A model generated the notes under the pieces. That model did not search any database. It worked only from the letters and a program-made list of their open reading frames with translations, and had not been told where the DNA came from. From Rhodoferax ferrireducens T118 (GTDB taxonomy: Bacteria > Pseudomonadota > Gammaproteobacteria > Burkholderiales > Burkholderiaceae_C): DNA of 64,000 nt. The DNA lies in the NCBI RefSeq assembly GCF_000013605.1, contig NC_007908.1:1240001-1304000 (forward strand), written 5' to 3'. Both the position numbers and the translations under genes were made by a program. This document shows positions 20,404-52,285 of the stretch, in pieces. Positions within the stretch are counted from its first letter, which is position 1. Each line of letters opens with the position of its first letter.

Positions 20404-22636
20404 TCTCATCGTCGAACATGACGCCTGCGGCGCATCGAACCAGCGAATCATTTTCTTTGACGAAGTCACTGACACAATCTGGAAAGGAAGCATCGCTTTC
20501 ATTACAGAACAGGGCCAGTCACGCCGTGCCTATTGCCCCCAGCCAAAAATTGAATCTCTGAGGGTGTTTCAGAAAAAAATCGCAGAGAATTTATTGAGTT
20601 GTGTGCCGTTCAACGTCCCGGGGGAATGGAGCTGGACCAATAAGGACTTCGAAGCTCGCGACCTCTCGATCCTCAGACGTGAAAGACGGCAGCGGTTGAA
20701 ATGGAAGGCCCGCCGAGACCAAGCATTCGAACTCATTAAGCCGCTGGTCACAAAGTACACGATAGACGATATTTTGCACCAGTCTCTGCACTTGAGTTGG
20801 CCGGCACGAAGAGCACGTGAACTGGGCATGAGGTCCAGCCGGGACATTTATTGTGCATTACATAAATATCTGACGGGACTCGGCAACAAAAATGCATTGT
20901 TGCCAGCCTACGGTAATTGTGGTGGGGCCGGGAAGCAGAAATTCTTCACCACCCCTCCAGGGAAAATATCTGGAGAAATTATTAATGGCTTCAATTCGGA
21001 TAAGTTGGCCCGGATCCGAATGGGCTTGGGCTGGAAAAAGCACAAGAAAGAGGGTGTTTCAGTTCGGGTGGCTTATGACAGGTTTTTGAATGAGTTTTAC
21101 GCCTCGCAGGTATGTTGGAAGGATTCCATGATGAAGGTCATCCTCCTGCCGCCAGACCAATACCCCAGCGAGTATCAGTTTGCAGAATGGGGACCTCGCT
21201 ACGAGGGCAACATGAGTGCCAAATCGGTGAACGATGGCGAGACATCTCACAGAAAAAAAGTGGCACTCCGCTCCGGACAATCACGAACATCAGTTATAAG
21301 CGCTGGTCTTCTTGGACAGATTGACACCACTCCGTGTGATCAAAATCTTGTCAGCGAGTCTTCGCGCTTAAAGATTCTCAGAACGCCATATAAGGCTGAA
21401 TTAGCTGATTCATTTCTCGGATACATCTATGGAATTCACGTTGGCTTTGAGCATCCTTGCACAACAACAAATCTTCTTGCCATACTCAACGGCGCCAGCT
21501 CTAAAGTCGAATTTTGTGCGCGATACGGGATCAACATCCGAGAGCATGAGTGGATATCACTAACGCCCCGTCGAATTTTGGGTGATAACGGTGAAATGAA
21601 ATCAGAAACCGGGTTGATTTCAATTGAAGAAATGGAGGCCTCAATTGAGTTTTGTGAAAGTTATTTTGGCGAACGAAAGGCTGTTCTTGAATCATCCAAC
21701 CATCGTGGCCATGTTCACAACGATCACTTGATCCCAGGGTCCAATAAGGGACGTCAGACAAAGCGCGGAGAAAAACCACCAGGACTTGACGCATGTTTCA
21801 CTTTTCAGGAATACATGCCACTGCTAATTCAATCAATTCTGTACCGCAACAATGAAGAAATCATTCCGTACCCGTTGATCGAAATGAGAAAAGACGGTGT
21901 TCGACCGGTGCGGATTGAAATGATGAAGTGGTGCATTGAGAAGGGATACGTAGCGTCCACGCCAACCGACATCGATGCGCTTCGAGTGCGCTGTTTGCCA
22001 CGGCTGAAGGCCGTTTTGCATGCTGATGGCGTACATCTATTCGACCCGACAAGTGCGTATGAATGCTTGATTCCATCTCTCAGATATTCTAGCCAATGGC
22101 TTCACCAAAGTGGGGCGTTGGAGCGGGCACATACGCGTCGGCGACGCCTTGAAGTCCACGTCAACCCCTCAAATCTGCAGGAAATATGGCTAAATTTGGA
22201 CGGCTTGAGGCCGCTACAAATCCAAACTCGTGATCCATATATGGCCCAGGTCACTCTATATGACTGGCTAAGCATTTCAAGTGATGACAAAGTGAAGAAC
22301 TTGCTGTCGCGCCAGGAGCATCGTGAGTACCATGTCGGCCGCATAGCTACGATTGATCATGTGGCCAAAAAGGCGAGAAAGGAGAAAAAACAAGAATTTG
22401 ACGCGCTCGACAAAAAGCCCTCCAAAGCCAGTCAATTGAAAGGAAAACGCCAGAACACCCACGCGGAAATGCTTGCGCAGGGTTTGTTTCCAAAACCAAT
22501 GGCTAGCCAGCAGCTGAATAACATGAAGAACGAGCAGGTTGTTCCTGCGACGTTATCGGCGCAGTCCATTTCTAACCCGTCACCGAATCCAGTTCGGGAT
22601 CTTCTTAGACAACTACGCCGAGGTCACCAATCATGA
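20390..22636 (+). CDS. tnsB: TnsB-like DDE transposase
   Basis: TnsB (748 residues from ATG 20390, which has GGAG eight bases upstream; a TTG at 20378 is an alternative) is the retroviral-type transposase that joins 3' ends. The catalytic triad is D312 (GQIDTTPCD), D399 (RRILGDNGEM) and E434 (KAVLESSN), with the usual 35-residue D-E step. Next to it come the family segments VEFCARYGI and the basic IPGSNKGRQTKRGEK. The N-terminal third has HTH-like DNA-binding segments for the end repeats. The C-terminal tail after about 660 is basic and probably contacts TnsC. It overlaps tnsA and tnsC. Confidence 0.88.
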   Translation: MQAGDLIVEHDACGASNQRIIFFDEVTDTIWKGSIAFITEQGQSRRAYCPQPKIESLRVFQKKIAENLLSCVPFNVPGEWSWTNKDFEARDLSILRRERRQRLKWKARRDQAFELIKPLVTKYTIDDILHQSLHLSWPARRARELGMRSSRDIYCALHKYLTGLGNKNALLPAYGNCGGAGKQKFFTTPPGKISGEIINGFNSDKLARIRMGLGWKKHKKEGVSVRVAYDRFLNEFYASQVCWKDSMMKVILLPPDQYPSEYQFAEWGPRYEGNMSAKSVNDGETSHRKKVALRSGQSRTSVISAGLLGQIDTTPCDQNLVSESSRLKILRTPYKAELADSFLGYIYGIHVGFEHPCTTTNLLAILNGASSKVEFCARYGINIREHEWISLTPRRILGDNGEMKSETGLISIEEMEASIEFCESYFGERKAVLESSNHRGHVHNDHLIPGSNKGRQTKRGEKPPGLDACFTFQEYMPLLIQSILYRNNEEIIPYPLIEMRKDGVRPVRIEMMKWCIEKGYVASTPTDIDALRVRCLPRLKAVLHADGVHLFDPTSAYECLIPSLRYSSQWLHQSGALERAHTRRRRLEVHVNPSNLQEIWLNLDGLRPLQIQTRDPYMAQVTLYDWLSISSDDKVKNLLSRQEHREYHVGRIATIDHVAKKARKEKKQEFDALDKKPSKASQLKGKRQNTHAEMLAQGLFPKPMASQQLNNMKNEQVVPATLSAQSISNPSPNPVRDLLRQLRRGHQS

Positions 22637-24090
22637 AAAGGAATGCCGCGGATCTATTGTCGATCGCACTCGACAATCCTCTTGTGAAGAACTTGCCGCC
22701 ATTCATGAGCAATTCCCAATTGGCGGAGAAGCTTGCGAATGATCCTTTCGCCCATATCGACTGGACCTCTGTCTCGTTGGCGGATCGTGCAGTTTTATTG
22801 AACCAACTCAAGACGACGTTTTGTGTAACCGAGACATCACTTCGAATTGCAGTGGCGCTTCAGGCACTCCTGTGGGATGGATTACTGGCGCGAGACCCTT
22901 GTCAGCCTGATCAGCGTCGGATAATTTATGAAATTGCAGAATATGACTTCAAGCAGATAAAGGTGCAGCCTTGGCGACATGAGTTCATAGGTGGCATCAT
23001 CATCCGTGGAATCACGGGGGTCGGCAAGTCTGCCGCAGTCAATCGATTCCTGTCGCTGTTTCCGCAAGTTATTCAACATGGAAGAAATGAATCTGCGCAG
23101 TGGGTCGAATTTCGTCAATTGGTATACCTCAAGGTCCCGATGTCCTCGGATGGCAGCCGAGGGGGGTTTCTCCAAAACTGTCTGCGAGAACTGGATGCTG
23201 CGCTGAAGACAGACTACTTTTCCAGGCATCAAGGCAAGCAATGGACTGTAGAAAGGTTGCTAGTCAATGTTCTTCACTACTTGGCCCTTCATAGATGTGG
23301 ACTTTTGATCATCGAGGAAGCGCAAGAACGCAATTTGGCGGAATCCCAATTTTCACGTGATTTTCTAACCTTTTTTTTACGCTTGCTAAATCACAGCATT
23401 CCGGTTGTCATCATTGGCAATCCCTTGGCGTTTTCCATTCTTGATTCGTTTAGCCAAGATCAGAGTAGGTTTTCCGAATACGGCGACTTCAAGATCGAGC
23501 CAATATTTGATTTCAACGATGAAGAATGGAGTGACGAATGGATGGGGCATGTTTGGGGTGCGTCTATGTTGGACCAAGAAGATGAGCCAATCGAGAATCT
23601 TGCCGAACTGATCTGGGCATACACGGGTGGTTTCCCCCGAATTTTGGCAAGGTTACGGCGTGAGACCATAAATGCTGCTATTCAAACCGGTAGCACTCGT
23701 GTTTGCCGAGAACATATTGAAATCGCTAACAGGACACCATCTATGGTTGGTGCCAACAAGCTGATTTCGGCCTTCACAAATCGGAACTGGCGGGACCTTG
23801 AGCAGTTTCGGGACATTCCCATTCCAGACATGAGGCATAGGTGGGAGCAAATGAAGTTGAGCAATGCAAATCTGGATCCCTCCTCGGAAGGAAATTCGCA
23901 AGTGACTAAGGAACCGGCCAAGGTGAATGACATGCCACCGACACGCATCAGGCGAAAGAATGGAAAAAAAATTCCTCAAAAGAATCGCACTGAGTCGGTC
24001 AATGCCGTTGCTTTGGGTCAACAGTTCGAAGCCGACGACATTCGCAGCCAAGAATATGTCGACAGGCTGGGCAGGCCGGAAACAGAATGA
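22633..24090 (+). CDS. tnsC: TnsC-like AAA+ regulator
   Basis: This 485-residue AAA+ ATPase of the TnsC/TniB type passes the target signal from TniQ/TnsD to TnsB. Walker A is GITGVGKS (126-133) and Walker B is CGLLIIEEAQE (222-232). A sensor-1 type VVIIGNPLAF follows. The start overlaps the tnsB stop (ATGA), and its own end overlaps the tniQ start (ATGA). Residues after about 400 are basic and low-complexity (RIRRKNGKKIPQKNR) and may bind DNA. Confidence 0.88.
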   Translation: MKRNAADLLSIALDNPLVKNLPPFMSNSQLAEKLANDPFAHIDWTSVSLADRAVLLNQLKTTFCVTETSLRIAVALQALLWDGLLARDPCQPDQRRIIYEIAEYDFKQIKVQPWRHEFIGGIIIRGITGVGKSAAVNRFLSLFPQVIQHGRNESAQWVEFRQLVYLKVPMSSDGSRGGFLQNCLRELDAALKTDYFSRHQGKQWTVERLLVNVLHYLALHRCGLLIIEEAQERNLAESQFSRDFLTFFLRLLNHSIPVVIIGNPLAFSILDSFSQDQSRFSEYGDFKIEPIFDFNDEEWSDEWMGHVWGASMLDQEDEPIENLAELIWAYTGGFPRILARLRRETINAAIQTGSTRVCREHIEIANRTPSMVGANKLISAFTNRNWRDLEQFRDIPIPDMRHRWEQMKLSNANLDPSSEGNSQVTKEPAKVNDMPPTRIRRKNGKKIPQKNRTESVNAVALGQQFEADDIRSQEYVDRLGRPETE

Positions 24091-25172
24091 AAGCTTCCGC
24101 CTCTTTTCCTGCAGGGGTGCCTCTTCCATTTCTTCCGATGTGGATTGAAGGCGAGACCCTATATTCTTGGGCTGCCCGCTTTCACGAACTCCAGGGAAGA
24201 ACCTCAAGTAGGCAGACTGGAATTACCCTATTTGGACGAAGCCACGCTGCGGCGGACTATGCGATTCCATTAGGTGTCGCGCATTTCGCGGCGTTGACGC
24301 GTGGGCAACTCGGGTCTCCTTCCGAAATCCTTATGAAGCGGACGGCGTTGTGTGAGTTGCGACCGTTTCTTTCCATCTCATGCTGGGATTCAATGCTTAA
24401 ACGATTTGTCGATACTCTGAGAAGTGAGAATACTCGACCGACTGTGGGAATTCGAGCGGGAGGCATTGGGGAACGATGCCCGCTTCGCTATTGCGGTGAC
24501 TGCATCAAGGATGAACTCGCAGAGTTGGGAACGTCGTATTGGCACCTACAGCATCAATTGCAGTGCAGTGTTACATGCCTCAAACACCAAAAGCCACTTG
24601 AGTTCCCCGAGCGTCGACGAACCACTTGGTCTCTTCCTCATCACGCTAATTCATTCGCCAAATCTGCATCAGTCTCGGACAGATTTCTTGCGTCGGCATT
24701 GCTGCTCAGTCGCATTTCGGAGGTTTGTACGCAGTTGAATCCAATACACATACCGACTTTTGCGGACGCTGCGACTCGGTCCCTTCTGAATCAGGATGTC
24801 GCGACGACCGTGCCCCGACGCTGTGGGGATGCACTGTCGGCTTGGTTTTCTCAAACGCAATCAAGCCAAGTTGCCAGGGTCTACTATCCAGATCACGCAG
24901 ATCTGATTTCTGGAAGGTGGATTGTTCAGTTGCTTCGGTCCCGGTGCTCAATTAAGCCAATTCACTGGCTGCTGCTGTGGGCCGCCATCCTTGAGAACGT
25001 ACCGGAGGAGTTGGCCTTAAAGCAATTTGGGCTGGCCGTGAACTGCCAAGCCGTCGACTCCGAGCTGGCAGATCACTGGTCTGAATTGTCTAATCACATG
25101 CTCTATAGATTCGTGCACGCCAGGCACAGGGCATCAAATGCTTCACAAGAAGAAAGGCATGGAATTCAATGA
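24087..25172 (+). CDS. tniQ: TniQ-family target-selection protein
   Basis: This 361-residue TniQ protein has the N-terminal signature PMWIEGETLYSWAARFHELQG (about 17-37) and a zinc-finger-like segment RYCGDCIKDELAELGTSYWHLQHQLQCSVTCLKHQ (about 137-170), both diagnostic of TniQ/TnsD. It links a DNA target to TnsC. The second half has no recognisable DNA-binding extension of the long TnsD kind, so it resembles the short TniQ proteins. It closes the tnsABC-tniQ operon. A longer TniQ protein is encoded at 59750. Confidence 0.88.
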   Translation: MKASASFPAGVPLPFLPMWIEGETLYSWAARFHELQGRTSSRQTGITLFGRSHAAADYAIPLGVAHFAALTRGQLGSPSEILMKRTALCELRPFLSISCWDSMLKRFVDTLRSENTRPTVGIRAGGIGERCPLRYCGDCIKDELAELGTSYWHLQHQLQCSVTCLKHQKPLEFPERRRTTWSLPHHANSFAKSASVSDRFLASALLLSRISEVCTQLNPIHIPTFADAATRSLLNQDVATTVPRRCGDALSAWFSQTQSSQVARVYYPDHADLISGRWIVQLLRSRCSIKPIHWLLLWAAILENVPEELALKQFGLAVNCQAVDSELADHWSELSNHMLYRFVHARHRASNASQEERHGIQ

Positions 25173-40529: not shown

Positions 40530-41726
40530 TCATGGTGCAGCCTGTTCATAAGGCGGTGCCCGAATGGCCTGGCCGCGCATAAACGTTTGAACGATGATCA
40601 TTGGCGCGCCGCAGCGCGCGCAGACGAAGGTCGGTCGCACAAGTTCAACTGGCTCGTCGGTGTTCTTCGCGTCGGCAACTGCAACAGGTGCGACATCGAG
40701 CAACTCACGGGCGCGTGCCAGGTTCTCTTTGCGAGCGTTGTTGGCAATAAATCCATAGTGGCGAATGCGGTGAAAGCCGGTGGGTAGAACATGCAGCAGG
40801 AAGCGGCGCATGAACTCGTCTGGCTCAAGGGTCATGGTCTTGTGCCGCGTCTTGCCCTTGTCCCGGTAATCCTTCCAGCGAAACGTGACACCGCGCTCGT
40901 CCATCGATACCAGTCGAGAGTTGGCGATGGCGACCCGGTGGGTGTAGCGCGACAAATAGGCCAGCACAGCCTGTGGACCAGCAAACGGGCGTTTGGCATA
41001 GACCACCCATTCGCAGCGTCGCATCGGTGCCAGCCATTTGGCAAATGCGCTCGCGTCGCTTAGCGCGGCGTACTCGCCGAAGAACTGCAACTGGCCGGCT
41101 TGATGCGCCTGGTCGAGTTCTTCGAGGAAGCGCCGGCGAAACAGCCGAGAGAGCACGCGCACTGACAGGAAGAAGCCCGGTTTGCACGCGACCCAACTCT
41201 GGCTGTCCTTGGTCAGACCGCCGCCGGGCACGATGCCGTGCACATGCGGGTGGTGCGTCAGTGCCGATCCCCAGGTGTGCAGCACCAGCGTTGCTGCGAT
41301 CTGCGCGCCCAGATGCTTGGGGTCGGCTGCGATGGTGATCAGGGTTTCTGCTGCCACCTCAAACAACAGCCGGTAGATCACGGCCTTGTTGTAGTACGCA
41401 ATGGCGCTGAGGGGTGCGGGCAAGGTGAAGACCACATGGTAGTAGTCCACTGGCAGCAGTTCGGCCTGGCGTTCTTCCAGCCAACGCTTGGCCGCACTGG
41501 CCTGGCACTTGGGGCAGTGCCGGTTGCGGCACGAATTGTACGCAATCTCGCCGTGCTCGCACGCCTGGCAGTGCAACAGGTGTCCCCCCAGCGCCGCGCT
41601 GCGGCACTGTTCGATGGCCGACATGACCTTGAGTTGACCCAGGCTCAGGTGCCCCTGCTGGCCATTACGCCAAGCCGGGCCGTGGGTACGAAAGATGTCG
41701 GCGACCTCCAGGGCGAGGCGCCCCAC
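40530..41726 (-). CDS. IS91 family transposase (Y2/HUH)
   Basis: This 398-residue IS91-type rolling-circle transposase has an N-terminal zinc-binding module (HCQACEHGEIAYNSCRNRHCPKCQ, about 50-78), the HUH motif HPHVHGIVPGGG (about 157-168) and the tyrosine-bearing AYLSRYTHRVAIAN (about 260-273). A further CARCG zinc knuckle lies in the C-terminal part. It appears complete. Confidence 0.93.
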   Translation of the reverse strand: MGRLALEVADIFRTHGPAWRNGQQGHLSLGQLKVMSAIEQCRSAALGGHLLHCQACEHGEIAYNSCRNRHCPKCQASAAKRWLEERQAELLPVDYYHVVFTLPAPLSAIAYYNKAVIYRLLFEVAAETLITIAADPKHLGAQIAATLVLHTWGSALTHHPHVHGIVPGGGLTKDSQSWVACKPGFFLSVRVLSRLFRRRFLEELDQAHQAGQLQFFGEYAALSDASAFAKWLAPMRRCEWVVYAKRPFAGPQAVLAYLSRYTHRVAIANSRLVSMDERGVTFRWKDYRDKGKTRHKTMTLEPDEFMRRFLLHVLPTGFHRIRHYGFIANNARKENLARARELLDVAPVAVADAKNTDEPVELVRPTFVCARCGAPMIIVQTFMRGQAIRAPPYEQAAP

Positions 41727-41735
41727 GGAAGGTCC

Positions 41736-42611
41736 CTACGCGGGCTCTAAAGTCTCCAGTGGGCTGATCACTTCGCGCAGGATGTCTGTGGCCACCTGGA
41801 CGTACTGCGCCGTAGTGTCGAGCCGGTTGTGTCCGAGCAATACCTGTATCACCCGGATGTCCACTTTCTGCTCCAGTAGGTGCGTGGCAAAGCTGTGGCG
41901 CAGCGTGTGCATGGAGACGCGCTTGTCTATTCTTGCCACCAGGGCTGCTTCGTGAATGGCTCGATTGAGTTGGCGCGTGCCCAGCGACTCGATGGGATTG
42001 AGCCCCGGAAACAGCCAGCCACCGTCGAGCATCTTGCCTTGTGCACGTGCCACACGCCACCAGCAACGCAGCCGCTCCAGCAGTACGGGTGAGAGCATGG
42101 CGTAGCGATCCTTGCGTCCCTTGCCTTGTTCCACGCGCAGCGTCATGCGTTGACTGTCAATGTCGCTCACTTTGAGCGCGACCACTTCGCCGACTCGCAG
42201 CCCGGTGCCGTAGGCCAATGAAAGGGCTGTCTGGTGCTTGATATGCCCAACTGCAGCAAGCAATCTGGCCACCTCTTCCTTGCTCAACACCACGGGCAGT
42301 CGATGCGGCACGCGCACCGACTGCATCTTGGCCATGACCTCTTCACGGCCCAGCGTGATACTGAAGAAGAAATTCAAGCCAACGATGGTCGCGTTGAGCG
42401 TGATGGGCGAGGCTCCTGAATCAACCATATGCAACTGGAAGCGGCGCAAATCCTCTGCGCTGGCAGTATCGGGCGACCTGCCGATAAATCCCGCAAGCTT
42501 GCGCACGGCTCGAACGTATGCCGATTGCGTCTTGGGCGCCAGCTTGCGCAGTCGCATGTCCTCGATCATGCGTTGACGTAGTGGCGAGACGGCTTGACTT
42601 GATGACTCCAT
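41736..42611 (-). CDS. Tyrosine recombinase of the IS91-type element
   Basis: This 291-residue site-specific recombinase has an N-terminal SAM-like domain (RMIEDMRLRKLAPKTQSAYVRAVRKLAGF) and a catalytic domain with R (TGLRVGEVVAL), HxxR (HTLRHSFATHLL), the late H (LLGHNRLDTTAQY) and the nucleophilic tyrosine in TTAQYVQV. ATG 42611 follows an AGGAG site. It is not an integron IntI: it lacks the extra IntI patch and belongs with the IS91-type partner gene downstream. Confidence 0.9.
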   Translation of the reverse strand: MESSSQAVSPLRQRMIEDMRLRKLAPKTQSAYVRAVRKLAGFIGRSPDTASAEDLRRFQLHMVDSGASPITLNATIVGLNFFFSITLGREEVMAKMQSVRVPHRLPVVLSKEEVARLLAAVGHIKHQTALSLAYGTGLRVGEVVALKVSDIDSQRMTLRVEQGKGRKDRYAMLSPVLLERLRCWWRVARAQGKMLDGGWLFPGLNPIESLGTRQLNRAIHEAALVARIDKRVSMHTLRHSFATHLLEQKVDIRVIQVLLGHNRLDTTAQYVQVATDILREVISPLETLEPA

Positions 42612-43386: not shown

Positions 43387-43701
43387 CTATGCCAAAAGGC
43401 GCTTCGAACGCCTTGCAGCCATCGTCACCGTGAGGCCAAAAAGCGTCAACGCCGCTCCCGCCGCGTAACCGAGCGCCGACTCCGGCACCCACCACGTCAG
43501 TAGCGTCGGGTAAATGTCCGCCAGGCTGCGCTCGACGCCCTGGCGGCCACCCAGCGACCCGATTACCGCGATGCTGACCCTGGCTGCTCGGCCGATGAGG
43601 CCAGCGACGATGAGGAACGAGCCCGTACGACACAGCGCTTTGCCGAGCGTAACGATGCGGCGTGGGTCGCGGATTATGAAGTCGAGCAACACTGAAAACA
43701 T
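43387..43701 (-). CDS. Small membrane protein of unknown function
   Basis: This 104-residue protein starts at 43701 behind an AAAGGA site. Two hydrophobic helices (about 24-48 and 76-98) are separated by a polar loop (GSLGGRQGVERSLADIYPTLLTWW), with a basic C-terminus. It lies 68 bases downstream of the E1-like gene on the same strand, so it may be the last gene of the ubiquitin-like operon, but no link in function is known. Confidence 0.6.
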   Translation of the reverse strand: MFSVLLDFIIRDPRRIVTLGKALCRTGSFLIVAGLIGRAARVSIAVIGSLGGRQGVERSLADIYPTLLTWWVPESALGYAAGAALTLFGLTVTMAARRSKRLLA

Positions 43702-43769
43702 GATGTGGTCCTTTTGGATGTGGTTGAAGAAGATGATGCGGGGATACTGATGAACTGCGACGGCAAGCG

Positions 43770-45062
43770 CTATGCGCCGAGCAAGGCTTCCAGCCCGCCC
43801 GGGTCTCGGAGATTCAGGTCTACGACGGAACAGGCATCGCCGCCGAGCTGTCTACGCAGCAACTCGGCGATAGCGTAGCCCGCAGCAACGCAGCCGACGA
43901 ACGGCGCGCCGACTGCGCGGCTTGCGAGGGTCGTGACACCACAGGGGTCGGCACCACCTGCAATTAGCGCCTGATAGGCGGGAGCCTGGGCCATGTCCGG
44001 GTTGACGGTATCTGCGGCCCACAGTGCGGCCGCGGACGACGGGCCGGGGAAGGTGCGCACGCGCATGGCGCGGAAGTCTCTGAAGCCCGAACCCAGCCCA
44101 GCATCGACGACCGTGCTGAAGCCGGCGCCCTCCACAACCCGTCGCGCCGCGGCGTTGTCGACGCCGAACAGGGCCAGCCGCGGCTCTGTCGGGTGCACGC
44201 GCTGCGTTTCGTCGAAGCGCCGCTCGACGATAGCGGTCGCATAGCCTCGTGCTTCGAGCCAGGATGCAGCCACTCGCGTCTTCCTGTGACCCATCTCCGC
44301 TGCAGTCGACAACATCGACGTCGATAGCGTGGACTTGGAAATAATGTCGACGTCTTGAAGGACGAGTGTCGCATTCGCCTCTGGCTTCATAAAGCCAAGC
44401 GTCCAGGCGTAGGCCTGACCTAGGTGCCCCAGACCCACCAGCCAAACTCCAGGCACCTTCACCCCGGCCATGGGCGGTGGGGTACCGTTTTCAAGACAAC
44501 TTGGTGACCACAGCGACAGCGTTACCGCGCGGCGGCCCGCATAGGGGTTGTCGCACCGCAGGATGGAAAAGGCTTCGCTGACGGCGAGCCCAGCTGCTGC
44601 CACACACGCCGGCGCGAAGAAGCCGCCCGCGCCCGAAGACTTTGGACCAACGCCGTAGCGCCAACCGTCAGCCCACGGTTGAATCGCACGGTCATCGGCG
44701 ACGGCCCCGACGGTAGTGTTGGCTGTAATGACAATCGCTGGCCATGCCTGTGCCTGCTCGCGCGAGACTGCCGTGACACCTACCCAAGCCGAAAACTCGC
44801 CCAGCATGAGACCAAGGAATCCAGGTGCGCGAAGGACCATGTCGCGAGGTGCGTCTATGTAAACGTTGCCCAGGAAGCTGCGCGAGGCCGCGTTGATGGC
44901 GGTGAGCGCGATGACCTGTGCCGAGACATCATCGACCACGCTTTGGTCCAGAACGATGCGAACACCGTATGCCGAGAACTTGGCTTGCGCTGCCTCGATT
45001 GTTACTGCCTCGCCGCTGTCGGCCAGCACCTTTGCCAACCGGTGAAATGAATCCGCATCCAT
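43770..45062 (-). CDS. E1-like ThiF-family activating enzyme
   Basis: This 430-residue protein has an N-terminal domain of unknown type (1-200) and a ThiF/E1 adenylation domain. The nucleotide loop is VWLVGLGHLGQAYAW (207-220), the acidic adenylation strand is VLQDVDIISKSTLS (234-247) and C374 in GGADPCGVTTLASRAVGAPFVG is the likely thioester cysteine. It would adenylate the C-terminus of the ubiquitin-like protein at 45991 and pass it to the E2-like protein. The long N-terminal extension resembles E1s of bacterial Bil/Bub-type operons. It lies ten bases after the JAB gene. Confidence 0.8.
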   Translation of the reverse strand: MDADSFHRLAKVLADSGEAVTIEAAQAKFSAYGVRIVLDQSVVDDVSAQVIALTAINAASRSFLGNVYIDAPRDMVLRAPGFLGLMLGEFSAWVGVTAVSREQAQAWPAIVITANTTVGAVADDRAIQPWADGWRYGVGPKSSGAGGFFAPACVAAAGLAVSEAFSILRCDNPYAGRRAVTLSLWSPSCLENGTPPPMAGVKVPGVWLVGLGHLGQAYAWTLGFMKPEANATLVLQDVDIISKSTLSTSMLSTAAEMGHRKTRVAASWLEARGYATAIVERRFDETQRVHPTEPRLALFGVDNAAARRVVEGAGFSTVVDAGLGSGFRDFRAMRVRTFPGPSSAAALWAADTVNPDMAQAPAYQALIAGGADPCGVTTLASRAVGAPFVGCVAAGYAIAELLRRQLGGDACSVVDLNLRDPGGLEALLGA

Positions 45063-45072
45063 CTTGTCGCTC

Positions 45073-45540
45073 CTAGAGAATCTTGATGAGCGCAGCGGCG
45101 TCGCTGCGGTAGTATGAATGCCAACGGCCCTCGCCTTGGTAAACGTTGAAGCTGATGTCTTTCGGCATCACCGGCCCCCGCGCGAAATTCGGTGCGATGA
45201 GCGCGATGTGGCCGGTCAAGGCAATCATTGGGTAAGCCCGGTCGGAGCGGCTTTGAGCCGGTCCATGCGGGTGCGTGTGGATGTCGGCTACGACTTCCAG
45301 CTGCCGGGTGGCGCAGCCTTCCCATAGGTGCGCGAACGCGCTGGAGTCGAGTCGCACGATGGGGTACTTCAGCGACTGCGGGTCAAGCTCGTCGTAAGTT
45401 AGCCAGTCGTAGACGACCTTTGCCGTGTCAGTCACACGCCCTAACAGGAAGGCACCCGACTCGCGGCGGCCTTGTCCGCGGTGATGCAGGTCACCCATCA
45501 GCGCGGACCACAGGCCGACCCCGAACTCAAGCGACTTCAT
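45073..45540 (-). CDS. JAB/JAMM-domain isopeptidase
   Basis: This protein of about 155 residues carries the JAMM zinc motif: E27 (RESGAFLLG), H88-T-H90 (ADIHTHPHGPA), S97 and D100 (SRSD). It is expected to cut isopeptide bonds or trim the ubiquitin-like protein, as BilD-type deubiquitinases do. The start at 45540 (MKSLEFGVG) overlaps the E2 stop by 14 bases. A start at 45552 is possible. The motif is complete, so activity is likely. Confidence 0.82.
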   Translation of the reverse strand: MKSLEFGVGLWSALMGDLHHRGQGRRESGAFLLGRVTDTAKVVYDWLTYDELDPQSLKYPIVRLDSSAFAHLWEGCATRQLEVVADIHTHPHGPAQSRSDRAYPMIALTGHIALIAPNFARGPVMPKDISFNVYQGEGRWHSYYRSDAAALIKIL

Positions 45541-45982
45541 AGGCGAGCTCATGGCTTTGCAGCACTTCGCAGACCGCTTCGATGTATTGCAGCAGTCCAC
45601 GCGAGGGATTCCAGATGAGCCAAGGGTGCTCGGTCAGCCAGTTCGAATGTCCGGGAATGCTCTCCCGGTCACACGGCAGGTAGAGTGCCGCGCCGCCCTT
45701 CCAGCCAGGGTTGAAGACCTGCGATACACGGCCTCCACGCGGCCACAGTGCAGCCGGCAACTGCTGCTGCGACCCCGAATCCCAAAGAGTTGCACTGGGT
45801 GCAGCCTCGGGGTATCCGGTGCACTCGAAGCGCAGCGTGAAACGCCGTCCATCGCGCGCGCCGACCTCTATGTAGACCAGCGGCCACTGCACTTGGACGA
45901 GCCGCCAGCGACACTTTGCCGCCCCGGCCAGGAACCGGCCGGAGCACAGGTGCGTGTCAAGAGCTTCCTTGTCTCGCATCAT
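45527..45982 (-). CDS. E2-like ubiquitin-conjugating protein
   Basis: This 151-residue protein has the layout of bacterial E2-like proteins: beta strands with FECTGYPEAAP (about 53-62, the E2 YPxxP turn) and the active-site region GGAALYLPCDRESIPGHSNW (97-116) with candidate catalytic C104. Trp-rich helices (WLTEHPWLIWNPSRGLLQYIEAVCEVL) follow. It should accept the ubiquitin-like protein from the E1. The start at 45982 follows AGGGGCGAG; an ATG three bases later is equivalent. It overlaps the JAB gene and lies eight bases after the ubiquitin-like gene. Confidence 0.75.
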   Translation of the reverse strand: MMRDKEALDTHLCSGRFLAGAAKCRWRLVQVQWPLVYIEVGARDGRRFTLRFECTGYPEAAPSATLWDSGSQQQLPAALWPRGGRVSQVFNPGWKGGAALYLPCDRESIPGHSNWLTEHPWLIWNPSRGLLQYIEAVCEVLQSHELAYEVA

Positions 45983-45990
45983 CTCGCCCC

Positions 45991-46473
45991 TTAGCCGTTC
46001 ACGCGGGGTGACGGGACCAAGTCGAATACGACACGATGCTGTGGCGCCTCGACCAAGGTGCCGATGTGCGTGTCGGCGTCTGGTCGGTTGTCGGTTCCGT
46101 GCACCTGCAGCATCATTTCCGTAGCGTCGGTCGGCGCGATGCCCAGCTCTTCCGTCGCCCAACGCTTGACGCGGCCTATAGTGGTGCTCGGGCGGAACGA
46201 ACGGCGCACGTCACGGCCTGCGTACCGCACGATGACGTCGACTCCCTTGAGGCGGTGCAAGTGCACCCGCAGGCCCTCGGGGATGTGGGGCAACTTTTCA
46301 AACGACCGCTCGTCGTCCTCGTCTTCGACGAAGAGGAAAAACTCTTCGCCGCGACCTTCGCCCAGCTTGAGCAGGCATGCCTCATGAAGCTTGGCGTGGC
46401 CCGCATCCGACTCGATTTCAACGACCTCGATGTCACGCAGCAACTCTGACTGCAGAAAAACATTAACCTTCAT
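45991..46473 (-). CDS. Ubiquitin-like protein with two beta-grasp regions
   Basis: This 160-residue protein is placed first before E2, JAB and E1. Residues 78-153 form a ubiquitin-like beta-grasp (VDVIVRYAGRDVRRSFRPSTTIGRVKRWATEELGI ... MLQVHGTDNRPDADTHIGTLVEAPQHRVVFDLV), and residues 1-75 may be a second, diverged one. Two tandem domains would resemble BilA/ISG15. The protein ends in RVNG, so a free C-terminal glycine (G160) is ready for adenylation without trimming. The mRNA leader can fold over its ribosome site. Confidence 0.72.
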   Translation of the reverse strand: MKVNVFLQSELLRDIEVVEIESDAGHAKLHEACLLKLGEGRGEEFFLFVEDEDDERSFEKLPHIPEGLRVHLHRLKGVDVIVRYAGRDVRRSFRPSTTIGRVKRWATEELGIAPTDATEMMLQVHGTDNRPDADTHIGTLVEAPQHRVVFDLVPSPRVNG

Positions 46474-46542
46474 GATGAAGTCCTTTTCTCGGTGACCGCG
46501 GGAATCGCGGCCTTCTACTGCTTAAACCGAGGTGACTTCATC
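46474..46542 (-). promoter_or_regulatory. Inverted repeat over the ubiquitin-like gene's RBS
   Basis: On the minus strand, GATGAAGTC (46542-46534) is complementary to GACTTCATC (46482-46474), which lies between the AGGA site and the ATG at 46473. Inside the loop CCGCG-ATTCC-CGCGG (46510-46496) forms a second stem. Pairing would hide the ribosome-binding site of the ubiquitin-like gene. It may be a translational switch, or a protein-binding site at a promoter in the 122-base gap. Confidence 0.45.
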
Positions 46543-46595
46543 AAAAAGAAAGGCGTCGACTCAAAAACTCTTTGAAGGCTTGATAGATGGTGTGC

Positions 46596-49500
46596 CTACA
46601 TCGACGGCCGAGTCGGGCAGAACGTCATATAGGCGCAACGCTTACAGTGTCTGCCGACCTTTGGCTCCCGATTGCCCGCGAAGAACCGCTGTACCGCGGC
46701 GAATGCCGCAGTTTTTTCGATTGCACCGCTCGGCTCGAACGATTCCTTCTTGGCACCCAACAGGCTGTGAATAGTCACGCCGCGGGCCCTGACGGGCTGA
46801 AGGTCGTTGAGCATGGGGCGGAGCAACTGGGCTGCCTTTGTCAGGTCACTGCCAGAGAATCTAATTAGTTCCAGGGCGGGCCGCCCCGCTGATGCATTGA
46901 GCAGCATCCAGTTCAGGCGAATCGTCAAACCGTTAATCGATGTAACCGGCTCTACGAATGCACCCGCGGAGGCCTTGATGATGGCCAATCCATCCCAGAA
47001 CACCGCGGTGGCATGCGTCCATAGCTGCAAGTCTTCTGTATGAGAAGGAAGCTTGCGACTCTCCCATTCCGCCATGAATGCCTCTTTGGGTGAAGAGCCT
47101 GGCTTCTGCGCAAGCGCCTTAAGGGCAGCCATGACAGCCCATCGCGCCTTTATTGCAATGTCTACCCCTTGCTCGCCGGCGAGCCGCAGCTCAAAGCGAT
47201 ACCAGTGCTGCAGGGGACATCGCACGAACGTCTCGAATTCGTCAAATGGCAACGGCTCCGTTAGTGGGGGCCGCGGAATGGGTGCCTGTCCAGCTGGGGC
47301 TGTCACTGTCCCATTAAACGAAAGTGCCCTGACCGGAGCTGATGGAGGGCTCAGCTGTGGTGCCCCCTTGCGAGTGTCCTCGCCGTTCTGGTACATAAAC
47401 AGACGTTTGCGAGCTCGCGACAGCGCGACGTAGAGCAAGTTATTCCGCTCGACCGTTGCCTCGAAGTTCCAGGTCTCCTGGGAGCTGCGCAAGACCTCGG
47501 GAGGAACGAGCCGTGAGGCCTCGGACGGTGATTCCCAGTAGCGACCCTTTGGGCCATAGTCGTCCGTATTCACGTTGTTCACGTGGACGGAATCAAATTC
47601 GAGGCCCTTGCTGCCGTGAATCGAGAGTAGTCGCACGGCATCAATTGCAGCGACCTCTGCAGGCAGCTCGCGCTCGGAATAGGTTTCACCGATGCGCTGC
47701 CGCAGTTGCTGACGTAACAGGAACCTAGGCAGGGTCGGGAATTTACGCTCACCGTCGCCTGTCCGCGTGGCATACGCGAATTGCCAGAGAGCGATTCGCA
47801 AGGAGTGCGCCTCGATGGATACATCCGCGCGGGGTGGATAACCGAAGCGATGCTCCAGCAGCAAGTCGCAAACGAAGCCCCATGGGTTGGACCGTCGCCA
47901 TTGACCATTCAATAGCCTGGCAATCGTCACAAGCACCGACCGTGATTGTGGTGAGAGGTCCTCCGGCAAATCGTCGAGCCATGCCCCACGTTGCAGCAAG
48001 GGGTCTTCCTCGCACAGCTCCATCAGCTTCTGGAAGTCTTCGAAATCGACGGCGAGGCGCGCGTCCCCCATCAGCCCCACAAGCGCCCGCGGCAATCGCT
48101 CCACCATAAGCTGCATCAAGCACAGTAGCGTCTTCACCTCGGGGCGCTGAGCCAGTTCGCCAATGTGCAGGACCGGGATGCCGACCCTGCGGAGTCCGGC
48201 TGCCACCATGCCGAGCTCGTAGTTCCAGCGGTTGAGTACAGCCTGCTTGCCGAAAGGCACTCCTTCAGAATGAAGCTCATGTATCCCCGCCGCGATTGCA
48301 TCTGGCATGGAGACGAACGGAAAGCATGACACCAGGGTGGGGGGATGTCCATTCGGTCCTGAAGTGGCCGTCGTATTCTCCAGCTTGAGCGACGTGGTTT
48401 CGAGGATATGCCGCTTCCCGGCCTGCTTCACGAGCTCCAGGATTTCACTGGAGCTACGCCGATTGAAGGCCAGCGGATACGTTTTAATCTTACCGCTACC
48501 AGCCTGCGCTTCGAAGCGTTCGTTGAACTTCGTCAAACTGTGCACGGAAGCGCCGCGCCAATGATGAATCGCCTGACGCACATCGCCGACGACCCAGAGC
48601 GACTTGGCGTTTTTCGCCAACTGCGAGATGAGCTCGACCATCGCATGCGTGACATCCTGATACTCGTCGACCAGTACGTGTTGGAACTTGTCTGCAAGCT
48701 CGCTGTACTGCGGACGGTCTTGCTCAATGGCCTTGGCAGGCTTTGCGACCAAGTCGACGAAATCCACCATTTTCCGTTCGCGTAGCGCTCGCTCGTAGCA
48801 TTCGTAGAGACTCGCGACATCTTCGCGGCATTCTCTTCGACCCGGCTCGGCAGTCGGTAGACCTTGAATGGCTAGTCGATACGCCTCCGGCGAGACCATC
48901 TCTTCCTTCAACCGCTTGATGCTATTGACGACATCTGGCAGCCAGTCATAGGGGTCCTGGACGCGCCGGTAGTGGGTGAGCTCAACCTTGGGCAGCTCCT
49001 GGTTGAGTATCGTGATTGCATTGAGCCTGTCCGCCACCTTGAGGTCGGACTCCAAGCCGAAGCACTGGTGGTACTTACGCAGGAAATCCAGTCCGAACGC
49101 ATGGAAAGTGCCGGCCCACACGTCCGATGCGCGATGGATATTCGCGTCGCGCAACCTGTCGACGAGCTCGAACGCCGCCTTGTTGGTGAACGTTAGAACG
49201 AGGATGTGGCTCGGGTCGACAGCTTTTTCATCAATCAGGTAGCGAATCCGGTGAACCAGCGTCGACGTCTTGCCGGAACCAGGCCCGGCAACGACGTTGA
49301 CATAGCGCTCAGGCGCCTGAATGGCAAGCAGCTGGTCCAGACTGGGAGGATGCTGGGTCCTTGCCTCGGGCGCCAACACAACATTCGGCAGCATGACCGC
49401 GTCCAGCATCTGCTGACGCACGATTTCGAGGTGGATGCCCAAGTCGCGTGCGGCCTTCCGGGGTCCGACACCGGCGTCATGTAGCACGCGCGCAACCTCA

Positions 49501-49934
49501 CGCGGAAGCATAAGCTCGCGCGCAAAGACGTTCGCTCTGAGCTCCAACCGTTCGCGCGCCCCATAGGCTTCGACTGAGATAACTGCCGGTGTGCCCTCAG
49601 CGTCGGTCAGCGAGCTCAACGAGGCTATTGCGACTTCTTCCTGCGACTCGTCGAGAATAAAGTGGCCAAGCTCATGAGCGACTAGGTAAGCCTGCTCAGC
49701 TACACCGATATCCTTACGGACGTAGATATAGTCTTCCTTGCGTCTGAGGATGGCATCCCCGTTCGAGAGTTCCGCAGCGCCTTTCGGAACATATTCGACT
49801 CCCAGGGAAAGCTTCGCCGCAATTGGGTCGGGCGTCAGGAACTCACTGACGTGCACTGCCTCACCCGCACGGTCGTCGAGGAGCTTCCTTCGCAGAGCGA
49901 CTGCTTGCTCTCGTGCACGCTGAAAGGGATTCAT
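46596..49934 (-). CDS. ImmA/IrrE protease-UvrD helicase-Fe-S fusion protein
   Basis: This 1112-residue protein has three parts. Residues 1-190 are an ImmA/IrrE metallopeptidase (H87-E-L-G-H91, with a third ligand in ELRANVFARELMLP). Residues about 197-840 are a UvrD/Rep-type superfamily 1 helicase: GPGSGKT (217-223), DEYQDVTHA, VGDVRQAIHHWRGA, SIHGSKGLEFDSV and LLYVALSRARKRLF. The C-terminal part resembles AddB/Cas4-type PD-(D/E)XK proteins, with FETFVRCPLQHWYRF near 880 and C1097-x2-C1100-x5-C1106 as a likely Fe-S site. I cannot place the nuclease aspartate and lysine with certainty. It lies one base after the 204-residue protein gene and 122 bases before the ubiquitin-like gene, all one direction. 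Confidence 0.85.
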   Translation of the reverse strand: MNPFQRAREQAVALRRKLLDDRAGEAVHVSEFLTPDPIAAKLSLGVEYVPKGAAELSNGDAILRRKEDYIYVRKDIGVAEQAYLVAHELGHFILDESQEEVAIASLSSLTDAEGTPAVISVEAYGARERLELRANVFARELMLPREVARVLHDAGVGPRKAARDLGIHLEIVRQQMLDAVMLPNVVLAPEARTQHPPSLDQLLAIQAPERYVNVVAGPGSGKTSTLVHRIRYLIDEKAVDPSHILVLTFTNKAAFELVDRLRDANIHRASDVWAGTFHAFGLDFLRKYHQCFGLESDLKVADRLNAITILNQELPKVELTHYRRVQDPYDWLPDVVNSIKRLKEEMVSPEAYRLAIQGLPTAEPGRRECREDVASLYECYERALRERKMVDFVDLVAKPAKAIEQDRPQYSELADKFQHVLVDEYQDVTHAMVELISQLAKNAKSLWVVGDVRQAIHHWRGASVHSLTKFNERFEAQAGSGKIKTYPLAFNRRSSSEILELVKQAGKRHILETTSLKLENTTATSGPNGHPPTLVSCFPFVSMPDAIAAGIHELHSEGVPFGKQAVLNRWNYELGMVAAGLRRVGIPVLHIGELAQRPEVKTLLCLMQLMVERLPRALVGLMGDARLAVDFEDFQKLMELCEEDPLLQRGAWLDDLPEDLSPQSRSVLVTIARLLNGQWRRSNPWGFVCDLLLEHRFGYPPRADVSIEAHSLRIALWQFAYATRTGDGERKFPTLPRFLLRQQLRQRIGETYSERELPAEVAAIDAVRLLSIHGSKGLEFDSVHVNNVNTDDYGPKGRYWESPSEASRLVPPEVLRSSQETWNFEATVERNNLLYVALSRARKRLFMYQNGEDTRKGAPQLSPPSAPVRALSFNGTVTAPAGQAPIPRPPLTEPLPFDEFETFVRCPLQHWYRFELRLAGEQGVDIAIKARWAVMAALKALAQKPGSSPKEAFMAEWESRKLPSHTEDLQLWTHATAVFWDGLAIIKASAGAFVEPVTSINGLTIRLNWMLLNASAGRPALELIRFSGSDLTKAAQLLRPMLNDLQPVRARGVTIHSLLGAKKESFEPSGAIEKTAAFAAVQRFFAGNREPKVGRHCKRCAYMTFCPTRPSM

Positions 49935-49935
49935 G

Positions 49936-50550
49936 TCATTTCTCGTCAGCGAACTTCAAGAGTCTTGCCGTTTCCTCTGCTGAGAGGTCCTGCTCTCGAA
50001 CTGATTCCTCCCATGTGTTCGGCTGTGTCGCAAGCTTTGGTTTGCCGTGACCAGCCTTGAATGCTGGTACCGGTGTCGTAGCGAAATTTCGTCTGAAAAC
50101 CTCTGCCAACGCGGTAGCTGGCTCCTCAAAGAATGCAGACAATGCGTCCAACAACTTGCCAGGTGCTTTCGTGCGACCCGACAGGACTCCATTGAGCAGC
50201 GTCGCGTAGGGACCTATGCCAATCTTCTGCGCTGCCCCTTTTCTGGCCGCGCCCTTGAGCGAGTTCACCTTCTGCTGGGCTGATTCAAGGCTATGGCTGG
50301 GTACCTGATGGAACCTGCTCAGTGCCTTGCTGACCGTGCGGCTCGCCAATTCGGCATCGAACACATAGTCCTCATCGGAAGCGTCGGCCGCATCGCCGGC
50401 CATGCGCACTATTGCCGCATCGGCGATGTTCGAAGCGTGTTGCGGGTATTTGTTCACCAGCGCCTTCCAGTCTTTGGTGGTCGGGTGTTCGTGTTCGCTC
50501 AGGAACTGAGCGATAAGGCGTTCGGCCTCGTTCTTGTTGATGTCGGTCAT
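49936..50550 (-). CDS. Unknown regulator-like protein next to sigma factor
   Basis: This 204-residue protein (ATG 50550 behind GGAGAA) overlaps the sigma-factor stop and ends one base before the ImmA-helicase gene. The N-terminal part (AERLIAQFLSEHEHPTTKDWKALVNKYPQHASNIADAAIVRMAG) and the middle (GIGPYATLLNGVLSGRTKAPGKLLDALSAFFE, HTH-like) suggest a regulator or anti-sigma-like partner. ImmA-type proteases cleave such repressors in other mobile elements (ImmR of ICEBs1). The idea that this is the protease target is inference from order alone. Confidence 0.6.
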   Translation of the reverse strand: MTDINKNEAERLIAQFLSEHEHPTTKDWKALVNKYPQHASNIADAAIVRMAGDAADASDEDYVFDAELASRTVSKALSRFHQVPSHSLESAQQKVNSLKGAARKGAAQKIGIGPYATLLNGVLSGRTKAPGKLLDALSAFFEEPATALAEVFRRNFATTPVPAFKAGHGKPKLATQPNTWEESVREQDLSAEETARLLKFADEK

Positions 50551-51263
50551 TCCAGTTCTCCGAGGAGCTTCGTCAAAGCTCGCTGATGATGTTGATTGGC
50601 TGTTGGGATGGAGCAGCCGAGCAGTTCTGCGACCTTCCTCCATTCGTACTTGCACTCAGTTCGGAAGTAGAAGGCATCACGCTCCTTGCGGGGCAGTGCC
50701 ATCAGCGCGACCCGCACTCTTGCGGTCGTCTGAGTCCGAATTGCGGCTTCTTCTGGCGTTTCGGCTCCTGTGTCCTCCTCCGCAGCGATGGCAGGGTCCT
50801 CTCCCTGTTCGTCGGTCACTGTCATGGCGTCGACCGATTGCATGCTGTTCTTCAGCCGCAGTTGATGTCGCATGAAGTCATCGACCCGGTCGCGCACGAA
50901 GACTGCGAAGCGCACCTCACAGTTCGACACAGGGCTAGTGTCGGCGAGCAGGCTCTCCCACACGTAATCAATGGTGTCTGCGACCATGGTACTGCCGCGC
51001 TTGACCACATCGCCCCAGGCGCTCATACCCCGCAAACGTTTCCCGGCGAGAATTTGGATGCGACGGTTCAGTTCGGCCACGGCTTCGTCCACCACGCGCT
51101 CCGTTTCTCGGTACCGAGTTCGGATAAGCGTTGCCAGCACCTCGGAAGCAAGGTGATTCGCATGTTCATGATTTCCGATGCCGATGCGACGCTTCAGCTC
51201 GGCGGCGTCAAGGCCATGGACGATTTTCAGCTGCTGTTCATGGTCCGGGTCGCGTGCTCGCAT
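50547..51263 (-). CDS. Sigma-70 family (ECF-like) sigma factor
   Basis: About 238 residues. The C-terminal region (VALMALPRKERDAFYFRTECKYEWRKVAELLGCSIPTANQHHQRALTKLLGEL, about 185-238) is a region-4 helix-turn-helix. Residues about 35-150 (ASEVLATLIRTRYRETERVVDEAVAELNRRIQ ... VRFAVFVRDRVDDFMRHQLR) can be region 2. The start at 51263 is chosen by the family-like N-terminus; the frame is open further up but reads as junk. It is the first gene of the seven-gene minus-strand series and probably directs transcription of a promoter upstream of it or of the ubiquitin-like gene. Confidence 0.72.
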   Translation of the reverse strand: MRARDPDHEQQLKIVHGLDAAELKRRIGIGNHEHANHLASEVLATLIRTRYRETERVVDEAVAELNRRIQILAGKRLRGMSAWGDVVKRGSTMVADTIDYVWESLLADTSPVSNCEVRFAVFVRDRVDDFMRHQLRLKNSMQSVDAMTVTDEQGEDPAIAAEEDTGAETPEEAAIRTQTTARVRVALMALPRKERDAFYFRTECKYEWRKVAELLGCSIPTANQHHQRALTKLLGELE

Positions 51264-51958
51264 GCAAATCTCGCTTTCAGGAAACGGTTCATGTTTTCTC
51301 TCCCACGCTTTCAAAACCGATGTGAGCGCGGGAAAAAGAAAATCCCATGATTGAAGAATGGGTATTGTCCATCGAACGGACCACGTACGCAGTCTAGCAA
51401 GTGAGTATCGTGAACCAGTCAGTTTCGTATACCGGTGCGGCCCTTTTCGGACGCCCCAAGGCTCAGCTGCTCTTGCGGCAATCCCCTCCAATAGCGTACA
51501 TGATGAGCTGTACTTTGCCCGGCTGGGAATTTCACAGGTAGGACAACAAACGGGGTCGGCCAACGTCTGCTGTTGGTCGAGTCCGGGTACTCCTTTGATT
51601 GAAATCAGGGCCATAAAGTTGACAGTTGGTCTACCGACGCCGATGTCAGGTATCGGTCAGGCAATTTGAATTTCTGTGGACTCGCTACCGCTGTTTTGCG
51701 GGTGCCCGGTTCAGACCCTCTGCCAATCGTCGACTTTCGGTACTACCTCCTCCAAACGGCCTTGGCATATGTCGGTCGACTGTCGGCAAAGTGGCATTAA
51801 TTCACTCCAAATCTATTTGACTATGACCATTGGTTGTGTTCAAAACCGCAGGACTGCATGGACTTCATGCGCCAGTACCCTTCGGATCGGCTGCAGGCAG
51901 AGGCAAAGTTGCCCAATGAACATACTCTGATTAGCTGAGAGCGAGCTACCCATTCATC
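51264..51958. other. Upstream region of the sigma-factor operon
   Basis: No gene is convincing in these 695 bases on either strand. It should contain the promoter of the minus-strand series. I did not find a clear repeat or operator. Confidence 0.3.
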
Positions 51959-52285
51959 ATGACCCGGCGAAAGCACTATCACGTCTACGTGGTTGAACTG
52001 TCCAAGGATGTGCTGTTGAACGCCCGGTTTATGCGATCCAACCCCAACTATCTTCACGGCAAGCCCTGTGTCTATGTCGGCATGACAGGTCTGGATCCGG
52101 ATGTACGTTTTGACAAACACAAAGCAGGAATCCAGGCCAACCGCTTTGTTCAGGAGTTCGGCCTGCGCTTAGTGCCGGAGCTTTACACGCTGTACAACCC
52201 GTTGACTTATGACGAAGCCAAGAGTCTCGAAGTCGAACTGGGCATTGATCTGCGTGAGGGTGGCTATGGGGTCTGGCAGGCGTGA
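51959..52285 (+). CDS. GIY-YIG-like small protein
   Basis: This 108-residue protein reads HVYVVELSKDVL...KPCVYVGMTGLDPDVRFDKHKAGIQANRFVQEFGLRL. VYV and CVYVGMTG replace the GIY and YIG signatures, followed by the arginine and histidine of the nuclease core. The fold is probably GIY-YIG, but the second tyrosine and the late glutamate need checking. It is alone on this strand with its own start. Role unknown. Confidence 0.6.
   Translation: MTRRKHYHVYVVELSKDVLLNARFMRSNPNYLHGKPCVYVGMTGLDPDVRFDKHKAGIQANRFVQEFGLRLVPELYTLYNPLTYDEAKSLEVELGIDLREGGYGVWQA

Follow-up and report, generated by a model that had tools for sequence, protein, structure and literature searches.

The seven genes described here lie in a 64,000-nucleotide stretch of the Rhodoferax ferrireducens T118 genome (the window, to which all coordinates refer), where they run on the minus strand from position 51263 to 43770 and place a sigma factor and a protease-helicase protein in front of a ubiquitin-like conjugation cassette. 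The order is sigma, 204-residue protein, ImmA-UvrD, bilA, bilB, bilC and bilD. The first gene (50547..51263) encodes a sigma factor of 238 amino acids that resembles the extracytoplasmic function (ECF) type and has sigma2 and sigma4 regions with a flexible linker between them. Next comes the gene for a 204-residue protein (49936..50550), a candidate inhibitor of the sigma factor and candidate substrate of the neighbouring ImmA domain. The third gene (46596..49934) encodes a protein of 1112 amino acids with an ImmA/IrrE (M78) protease, a UvrD helicase and a C-terminal Fe-S-type cysteine domain. We refer to these three genes as the trio. The conjugation genes follow as bilA (45991..46473), bilB (45527..45982, ATG at 45982), bilC (45073..45540, ATG at 45540) and bilD (43770..45062). 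The genes for the sigma factor and the 204-residue protein overlap by 4 bp, a single nucleotide separates the latter from the start of ImmA-UvrD, bilA and bilB are 8 nt apart, bilC overlaps bilB by 14 nt, and 10 nt lie between bilC and bilD. The only true gap in the operon has 122 nt (46474-46595), extends from the helicase stop codon to bilA and holds a promoter-like site. The initial annotation of this DNA had described seven tightly packed genes in one direction, and coordinates and order agree with it apart from this gap. Two promoter-like sites, both on the minus strand and both of the form TTTCTTTTT-N12-TCGGTTT, stand 50 nt from a start codon: P1 (51314..51341) before the ATG of the sigma gene and P2 (46524..46551), inside the 122-nt gap, before that of bilA. 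We argue, short of proof, that in this locus an already known conjugation system is controlled in a new way.

The last four genes are a Bil system, a kind known for defence against phages. They stand in the Bil gene order, and each protein matches its own PADLOC profile at 2.5e-51 or better, namely BilA at 2.5e-51, BilB at 2.9e-55, BilC at 1.8e-60 and BilD at 8.6e-148; thus, the family test with PADLOC narrows the earlier Bil/Bub-type label to Bil. BilA is a ubiquitin-like (ISG15-like) protein of 160 residues, BilB the E2, BilC a JAB/JAMM isopeptidase and BilD the E1. The catalytic residues that had been named from the sequence are present (E2 C104, E1 C374 and the JAMM ligands E27/H88/H90/D100), and so is the ready C-terminal glycine, since BilA ends at Gly160 (RVNG). 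Pfam recognises DUF7665 in BilB (1.6e-66), Prok-JAB in BilC (2.6e-6) and ThiF in BilD at 5.6e-6, which is under the ThiF gathering score. No chain in the PDB was matched by BilB (phmmer, 0.01) or BilD (phmmer, 0.001), and a BilD profile found only general E1/ThiF-type chains there (best E 1.7e-4). Across the related loci described below, both histidines of the BilC HxH motif are kept in 25 of 25 sequences and the catalytic cysteine of BilD in all 26 rows, those without a trio included. The likeness to described Bil systems consists of the same four genes in equal order, equal predicted enzymes and four profile matches, while the trio-type loci differ by the sigma/204-residue/ImmA-UvrD trio itself and by a BilD group of their own. 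They also differ in BilB, in which a cysteine stands at the aligned catalytic position in 18 of the 19 proteins from sigma-bearing loci (leucine in L015). The six trio-less Bil operons (L109-L111, L144, L148, L152) have tryptophan or tyrosine at this position. The two Bil groups may not share one E2 chemistry; alternatively, the trio-less BilB proteins may carry their cysteine at another place. A matured BilA C-terminus was considered as a further trait of the trio type and rejected: in a count without L016, which is broken, and L145, which lacks the helicase, BilA ends in glycine in 13/18 trio-type loci and has a short tail in 5/18, and trio-less BilA is tailed in 4/6.

The trio was then followed through a profile table of all collected loci, with hidden Markov models built from the window and from plasmid loci. 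ImmA-UvrD family loci number 49, and 48 of them have the sigma factor and the small protein upstream (the exception is L136). A ubiquitin-like gene stands directly downstream in all 46 trio loci with a readable flank, 19 of Bil type and 27 of multiubiquitin type; in L022 and L025 the sequence ends before the next gene, and L016 keeps bilA only. As to ascertainment, 41 of the 49 loci were reached, or also reached, via the helicase, a route that presupposes no ubiquitin-like gene, and the helicase-reached trio loci with a readable flank have one in 38 of 38 cases. Members of the Alpha-, Beta- and Gammaproteobacteria have the Bil-type arrangement, as does one Chloroflexota bin. Among plasmids, tblastn with the helicase gave 88 records at 1e-60, and with BilD 36 records, 21 of them with at least 80% coverage. 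Fifteen of these 21 were examined, as the other six come from a species or genus already covered and have equal identity, and in 11 of the 15 the trio stands ahead of BilABCD, counting L015, in which the sigma gene is broken by IS256. One more (L145) has Bil with the sigma factor and the small protein and no helicase, a locus that may be decayed; L144, L148 and L152 have no trio and carry beside bilA a pair of helix-turn-helix (HTH) and ImmA genes, Pfam-tested in L144 and taken from annotation in the other two. Of 397 genomes of the phylum, 7 had the helicase and 5 had BilD at the limits used, the own genome being counted both times. The four other BilD genomes showed no trio within the 20-kb stretches covered (L109-L112; L112 is a broken fragment). 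At the level of orders, the helicase is present in 7 of 399 genomes (own included) and, in another order, in 8 of 200. A contig scan by generic helicase words gave 80 loci, of which the first 9 (L018-L026) were used; the other 71 matches concern mostly the UvrD part. The match lists of sigma factor, 204-residue protein and helicase have ten longest-contig sizes in common, which suggests that the close relatives of the window's trio are linked as well.

The multiubiquitin loci form a second ubiquitin-like class headed by the trio, one that the initial annotation did not mention. The downstream gene carries PF14452 (1.4e-50 in L017; 1.3e-25 in L135, there fused to Prok-E2_E) and is followed by a ThiF-type E1, in several loci with a JAB-like N-terminus as judged by eye; DUF6527 or a similar small protein is also found downstream. 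ImmA-UvrD beside conjugation genes thus recurs in distant bacteria, and the halves do not occur together only here, the outcome that had been named as speaking against a joint system.

Gene distances were compared for the 17 Bil loci that have all seven genes (L015 was left out). Pairwise distances are correlated for all gene pairs of the seven (r 0.67-0.94, permutation p=0.0005 each, n=17), most strongly for helicase and BilD (r=0.94). A BilD tree of 25 rows unites the trio-type sequences with L145 (support 94/95, slightly less than the tool requires for a star) and sets the six trio-less rows apart, and a helicase tree made by a quick method repeats subgroups, among them L008/L010, L143/L011/L147 and L012/L024/L141. 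In this tree the window's own helicase shares a divergent branch with L136 and metagenomic relatives, where the tree warns of long branches meeting. It could be objected that two independent systems of a defence island have become neighbours by chance. An integrase and an IS91-type transposase lie next door, trio-less Bil operons exist, and so does a helicase without Bil. However, this explanation is contradicted by the recurrence with a ubiquitin-like gene in every readable trio locus, by the correlated divergence and by the twin promoter-like sites, and we regard it as hardly credible. The data support the view that the two halves are one recurrent unit.

Reading the gaps between helicase and ubiquitin-like gene revealed a recurring pair of blocks, about TTTCCGGTT-N12-TGCGATTAA. 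With a threshold set at the 99% quantile of 1380 coding-control windows, the motif is present in 35 of the 46 gaps of trio loci (12/19 Bil, 23/27 multiubiquitin). Upstream of the sigma gene it was found in 11/19 Bil loci versus 3/27 multiubiquitin loci, in stretches of 300 bp that are longer than the 130-bp controls. It is absent from all six trio-less Bil loci. The helicase-less L145 has the motif at both places, and therefore the motif tracks the sigma factor. A leave-one-out matrix found it at p<=0.01 against mononucleotide shuffles in 29/38 gaps and 11/38 sigma upstream regions. The initial blind pairwise promoter test gave p<=0.01 in 9/38 loci, and in many multiubiquitin loci its best pair differs from the expected motif. 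For the window, the likeness of P1 and P2 has p=0.015 against dinucleotide shuffles. The window's form of the motif is diverged, P2 scoring 8.5 with the family matrix at a threshold of 12.7. In the 4.97 Mb genome the exact window form (spacer 11-12) has two matches, P1 and P2, against 0 for the reversed control; if as many as two mismatches are tolerated, the genome has 4 matches and the control 5. In the same way, the Chloroflexota bin (L023) and Caulobacter (L024) have their own form (at most one mismatch) exactly twice each, before the sigma gene and before bilA. As each pattern was built from the sites that it matches, what is informative is that the spacing is equal, where the sites lie and that there are no further ones. 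Four other genomes gave no match and are no test, as their own motif forms differ and one of them (G119) is not an intended trio genome.

Because the motif precedes 35 of 46 ubiquitin-like genes and none of the six trio-less ones, and because three genomes have exactly two sites, it is most likely the sigma factor that turns on regulator and conjugation genes alike. That it drives P2 is very probable, and the best-supported part of our interpretation is that the sigma factor would read P2 and, in Bil loci, P1 too. A scan for sigma70-type promoters in 43500-52000 found no housekeeping promoter for bilA, with 0 matches compared to 2.4 in shuffles. According to the initial annotation, expression of the ubiquitin-like part from its own promoter would have argued against one system. 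The first half of this holds, as bilA does have its own promoter-like site; however, this site is the twin of that before the sigma gene.

The sigma protein matches Sigma70_r4_2 in Pfam (8.3e-9), and its sigma2 region is recognised chiefly by structure. Searched against plasmids with tblastn at 0.01 the window's sigma factor had no match, though the sigma factors of plasmid trios do turn up by profile. The 204-residue protein consists of an N-terminal helical part, an XRE-like HTH at about 89-151 and, at about 160-186, a conserved linker VPAFKxGxxKP with a (T/S)WEEAV-like stretch. It has no Pfam match and no recognised anti-sigma domain; a profile search of the PDB gave nothing significant (best E 0.049), and segment 89-151 weakly resembles DdrO, LexA-HTH and the 434 Cro/repressor. 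In 30 of the 49 loci its gene overlaps the sigma gene by 4 bp and in 6 more by 1 bp. L136 is instructive here: beside the helicase it encodes a protein of 357 amino acids whose C-terminus is related to the 204-residue protein (profile E 2e-7) and whose N-terminus is different. This single case looks as if the C-terminal part pairs with the protease-helicase and the N-terminus with the sigma factor. The L136 helicase is 48% identical to that of the window, and the locus (L136:8934-13336), which has neither a sigma gene nor a ubiquitin-like one, resembles a variant of the protease-helicase/substrate pair with just two genes.

The XRE-like segment leaves room for a different role, in which the 204-residue protein would be an XRE-type repressor of P1 and P2 that is removed by ImmA, as in CapH-like repression, and the sigma factor would be a constitutive reader. 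Its weak matches to known repressors are in line with this, as are the HTH and ImmA pairs at three trio-less Bil loci and the related C-terminal part of the L136 partner, which has no sigma gene. However, an anti-sigma role is favoured by the overlap of the two genes, seen in 36 of 49 loci, and by the other N-terminal part where the sigma factor is absent, one case though this is. Repression of the CapH kind hence appears rather unlikely to us, and quite probably the 204-residue protein inhibits the sigma factor.

Pfam finds UvrD at 7.8e-62 and Peptidase_M78 at 2.7e-7 in the third protein of the trio, so that the M78 peptidase is not stand-alone here and is fused to UvrD and a cysteine domain. 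A PDDEXK_1 match (PD-(D/E)XK) at the helicase C-terminus has a value of 0.0012 and is under the Pfam cut-off. In the family alignment (47 members, two truncated ones left out) the HExxH motif, the downstream glutamate, the Walker A lysine and the DExQ glutamate are invariant in 46/47, being gapped in the broken L158, and four C-terminal cysteines are invariant in 47/47. In the window these residues are H87, E88, H91, E131, K222, E424, C906, C1097, C1100 and C1106. Scans of viral contigs with the helicase or sigma alignment found no relative, and tblastn of the L008 helicase against phages had no match at 1e-50. The PADLOC models for the Gabija UvrD match the helicase part; GajA, the Gabija nuclease partner, is not among the families listed for the seven proteins (25 of 59 for the helicase). 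This resemblance, the invariant ATPase residues and the position in the same operon would fit a protein that is mainly an effector or targeting arm, taking the BilA machinery to replicating or damaged DNA or attacking DNA, with regulation being secondary. However, Bil loci without ImmA-UvrD exist, L145 (a locus that may be decayed) combines Bil with the sigma pair and lacks the fusion, and ImmA-UvrD is found with conjugation systems of two kinds, which would be expected of a regulator. An effector function of this kind is improbable, and a regulatory protease remains our preferred reading.

We propose the following sequence of events. In the resting state the ECF-like sigma factor would be kept inactive by the 204-residue protein. 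Phage infection or damage would expose single-stranded DNA (ssDNA), which the UvrD/Fe-S part would engage, thereby switching on the attached ImmA protease. The protease would cut the conserved linker of the 204-residue protein, and the freed sigma factor would transcribe from P1, giving more sigma factor, partner and protease-helicase, and from P2, giving BilABCD. BilABCD would then conjugate BilA to targets, as characterised Bil systems do. Restraint of the sigma factor and its relief by an M78 cut are suggested by the logic of CapH/CapP and PprI/DdrO, by the gene overlap and by L136. Cleavage by the ImmA domain, backed by the invariant protease residues, the conserved tail of the small protein and the HTH and ImmA pairs at 3/6 trio-less Bil operons, seems probable. 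A strict tail pattern fits fewer members of the 204-residue family than the reading by eye, which weighs against the mechanism and lowered our confidence in it by a shade, to an even balance. That DNA or damage is the signal is about equally probable as the cleavage; here the switch by ssDNA is taken from the behaviour of the PprI protease (PMC10904395) and of CapP (PMC13373217), both of which are ssDNA-activated. The initial annotation had pictured an ImmA part that senses phage or DNA damage and cleaves the 204-residue protein to free the sigma factor. The regulatory part of this model is strongly supported by co-occurrence, correlated divergence and the paired motif, and sensing and cleavage keep the probabilities just given. 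All steps together, by which a self-amplifying sigma switch would control a phage-defence operon of Bil type, could as well be right as wrong. The same even judgement applies to the joint wider claim that an ECF-like sigma factor, a cleavable partner and a helicase-gated ImmA protease might be a portable immune switch, set before at least two types of conjugation system (Bil and multiubiquitin) and answering a DNA event, via sigma-dependent promoters, with protein tagging in an all-or-none burst.

CapH+CapP shares with the trio an M78 peptidase that stands, along with a putative substrate, ahead of an immune operon, and similar pairs are those beside Bil in L144, L148 and L152. In contrast, the peptidase is here fused to a UvrD helicase and a cysteine domain and joined by a sigma factor and twin promoter-like sites, and the substrate candidate has 204 amino acids instead of being a short XRE protein. 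ECF sigma/anti-sigma pairs such as AlgU-MucA and sigma-E-RseA share the sigma fold, the overlapping downstream gene and a promoter-like site common to sigma gene and target. These two pairs work through membrane proteolysis. Here, the anti-sigma candidate is without a recognised anti-sigma domain and the proposed protease is the M78-helicase fusion. To our knowledge, PprI-DdrO has no helicase fusion, no sigma factor and no conjugation genes. The M78 protease, the cleaved repressor and the activation by ssDNA (PMC10904395) are what this Deinococcus system (PprI is also termed IrrE) has in common with the trio as proposed here. CapK+CapS and CapW resemble the trio in being dedicated regulators that adjoin ubiquitin-like immune operons (Bub/Bil/CBASS); they are kinase/STAS or WYL repressors, and the accessible part of PMC13373217 describes no sigma factor, helicase or protease for them. 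Among the Pfam matches listed for the three upstream proteins there is no GHKL kinase or STAS-wHTH domain. The titles and abstracts covered contain no sigma/ImmA-UvrD module beside ubiquitin-like genes, in a search that lay outside the main Bil, Bub and CapH/CapP papers. The words 'sigma factor', 'helicase' and 'UvrD' do not occur in PMC1779556, nor do 'ImmA' and 'helicase' in PMC13373217, where the passages covered use 'uvrD' for host repair.

If the mechanism is true, it would account for the way in which a costly ubiquitin-like defence is kept silent before infection, and it would link bacterial ubiquitin-like defence to DNA sensing. Release of a sigma factor by a helicase-linked protease would be a regulatory logic not met in the accessible Bil/Bub literature, and a sigma-based, helicase-coupled counterpart of CapH/CapP, CapW and CapK/CapS. 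The twin promoter-like sites of known sequence, the predicted cleavage region and the conserved catalytic residues make parts of it testable, and the trio at the head of multiubiquitin operons provides a way to learn what this second class does.

Several neighbouring genes deserve mention. Beyond bilD, an IS91-type (Y2) transposase and a tyrosine recombinase (40530-42611) suggest a mobile setting. Further away, at 20378-25172, consecutive open reading frames (ORFs) of 752, 485 and 361 amino acids resemble what we take to be a transposition set of the TniA/TniB/TniQ sort. By annotation or ORF reading, an SbcD-like exonuclease and a large SMC/AAA-type ATPase form a pair near L011, L012, L014, L015, L021, L139, L151 and L153. 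DUF6088 and AbiEii/AbiGii-type genes lie near the sigma gene in the multiubiquitin plasmid loci L155, L156 and L157 (in L154 by position), in L156 on the opposite strand. Beside the operon of the window, the segment 52100-53578, with a 108-residue ORF and, by eye, a transporter like those of the major facilitator superfamily, is present in three genome copies of 98% identity.

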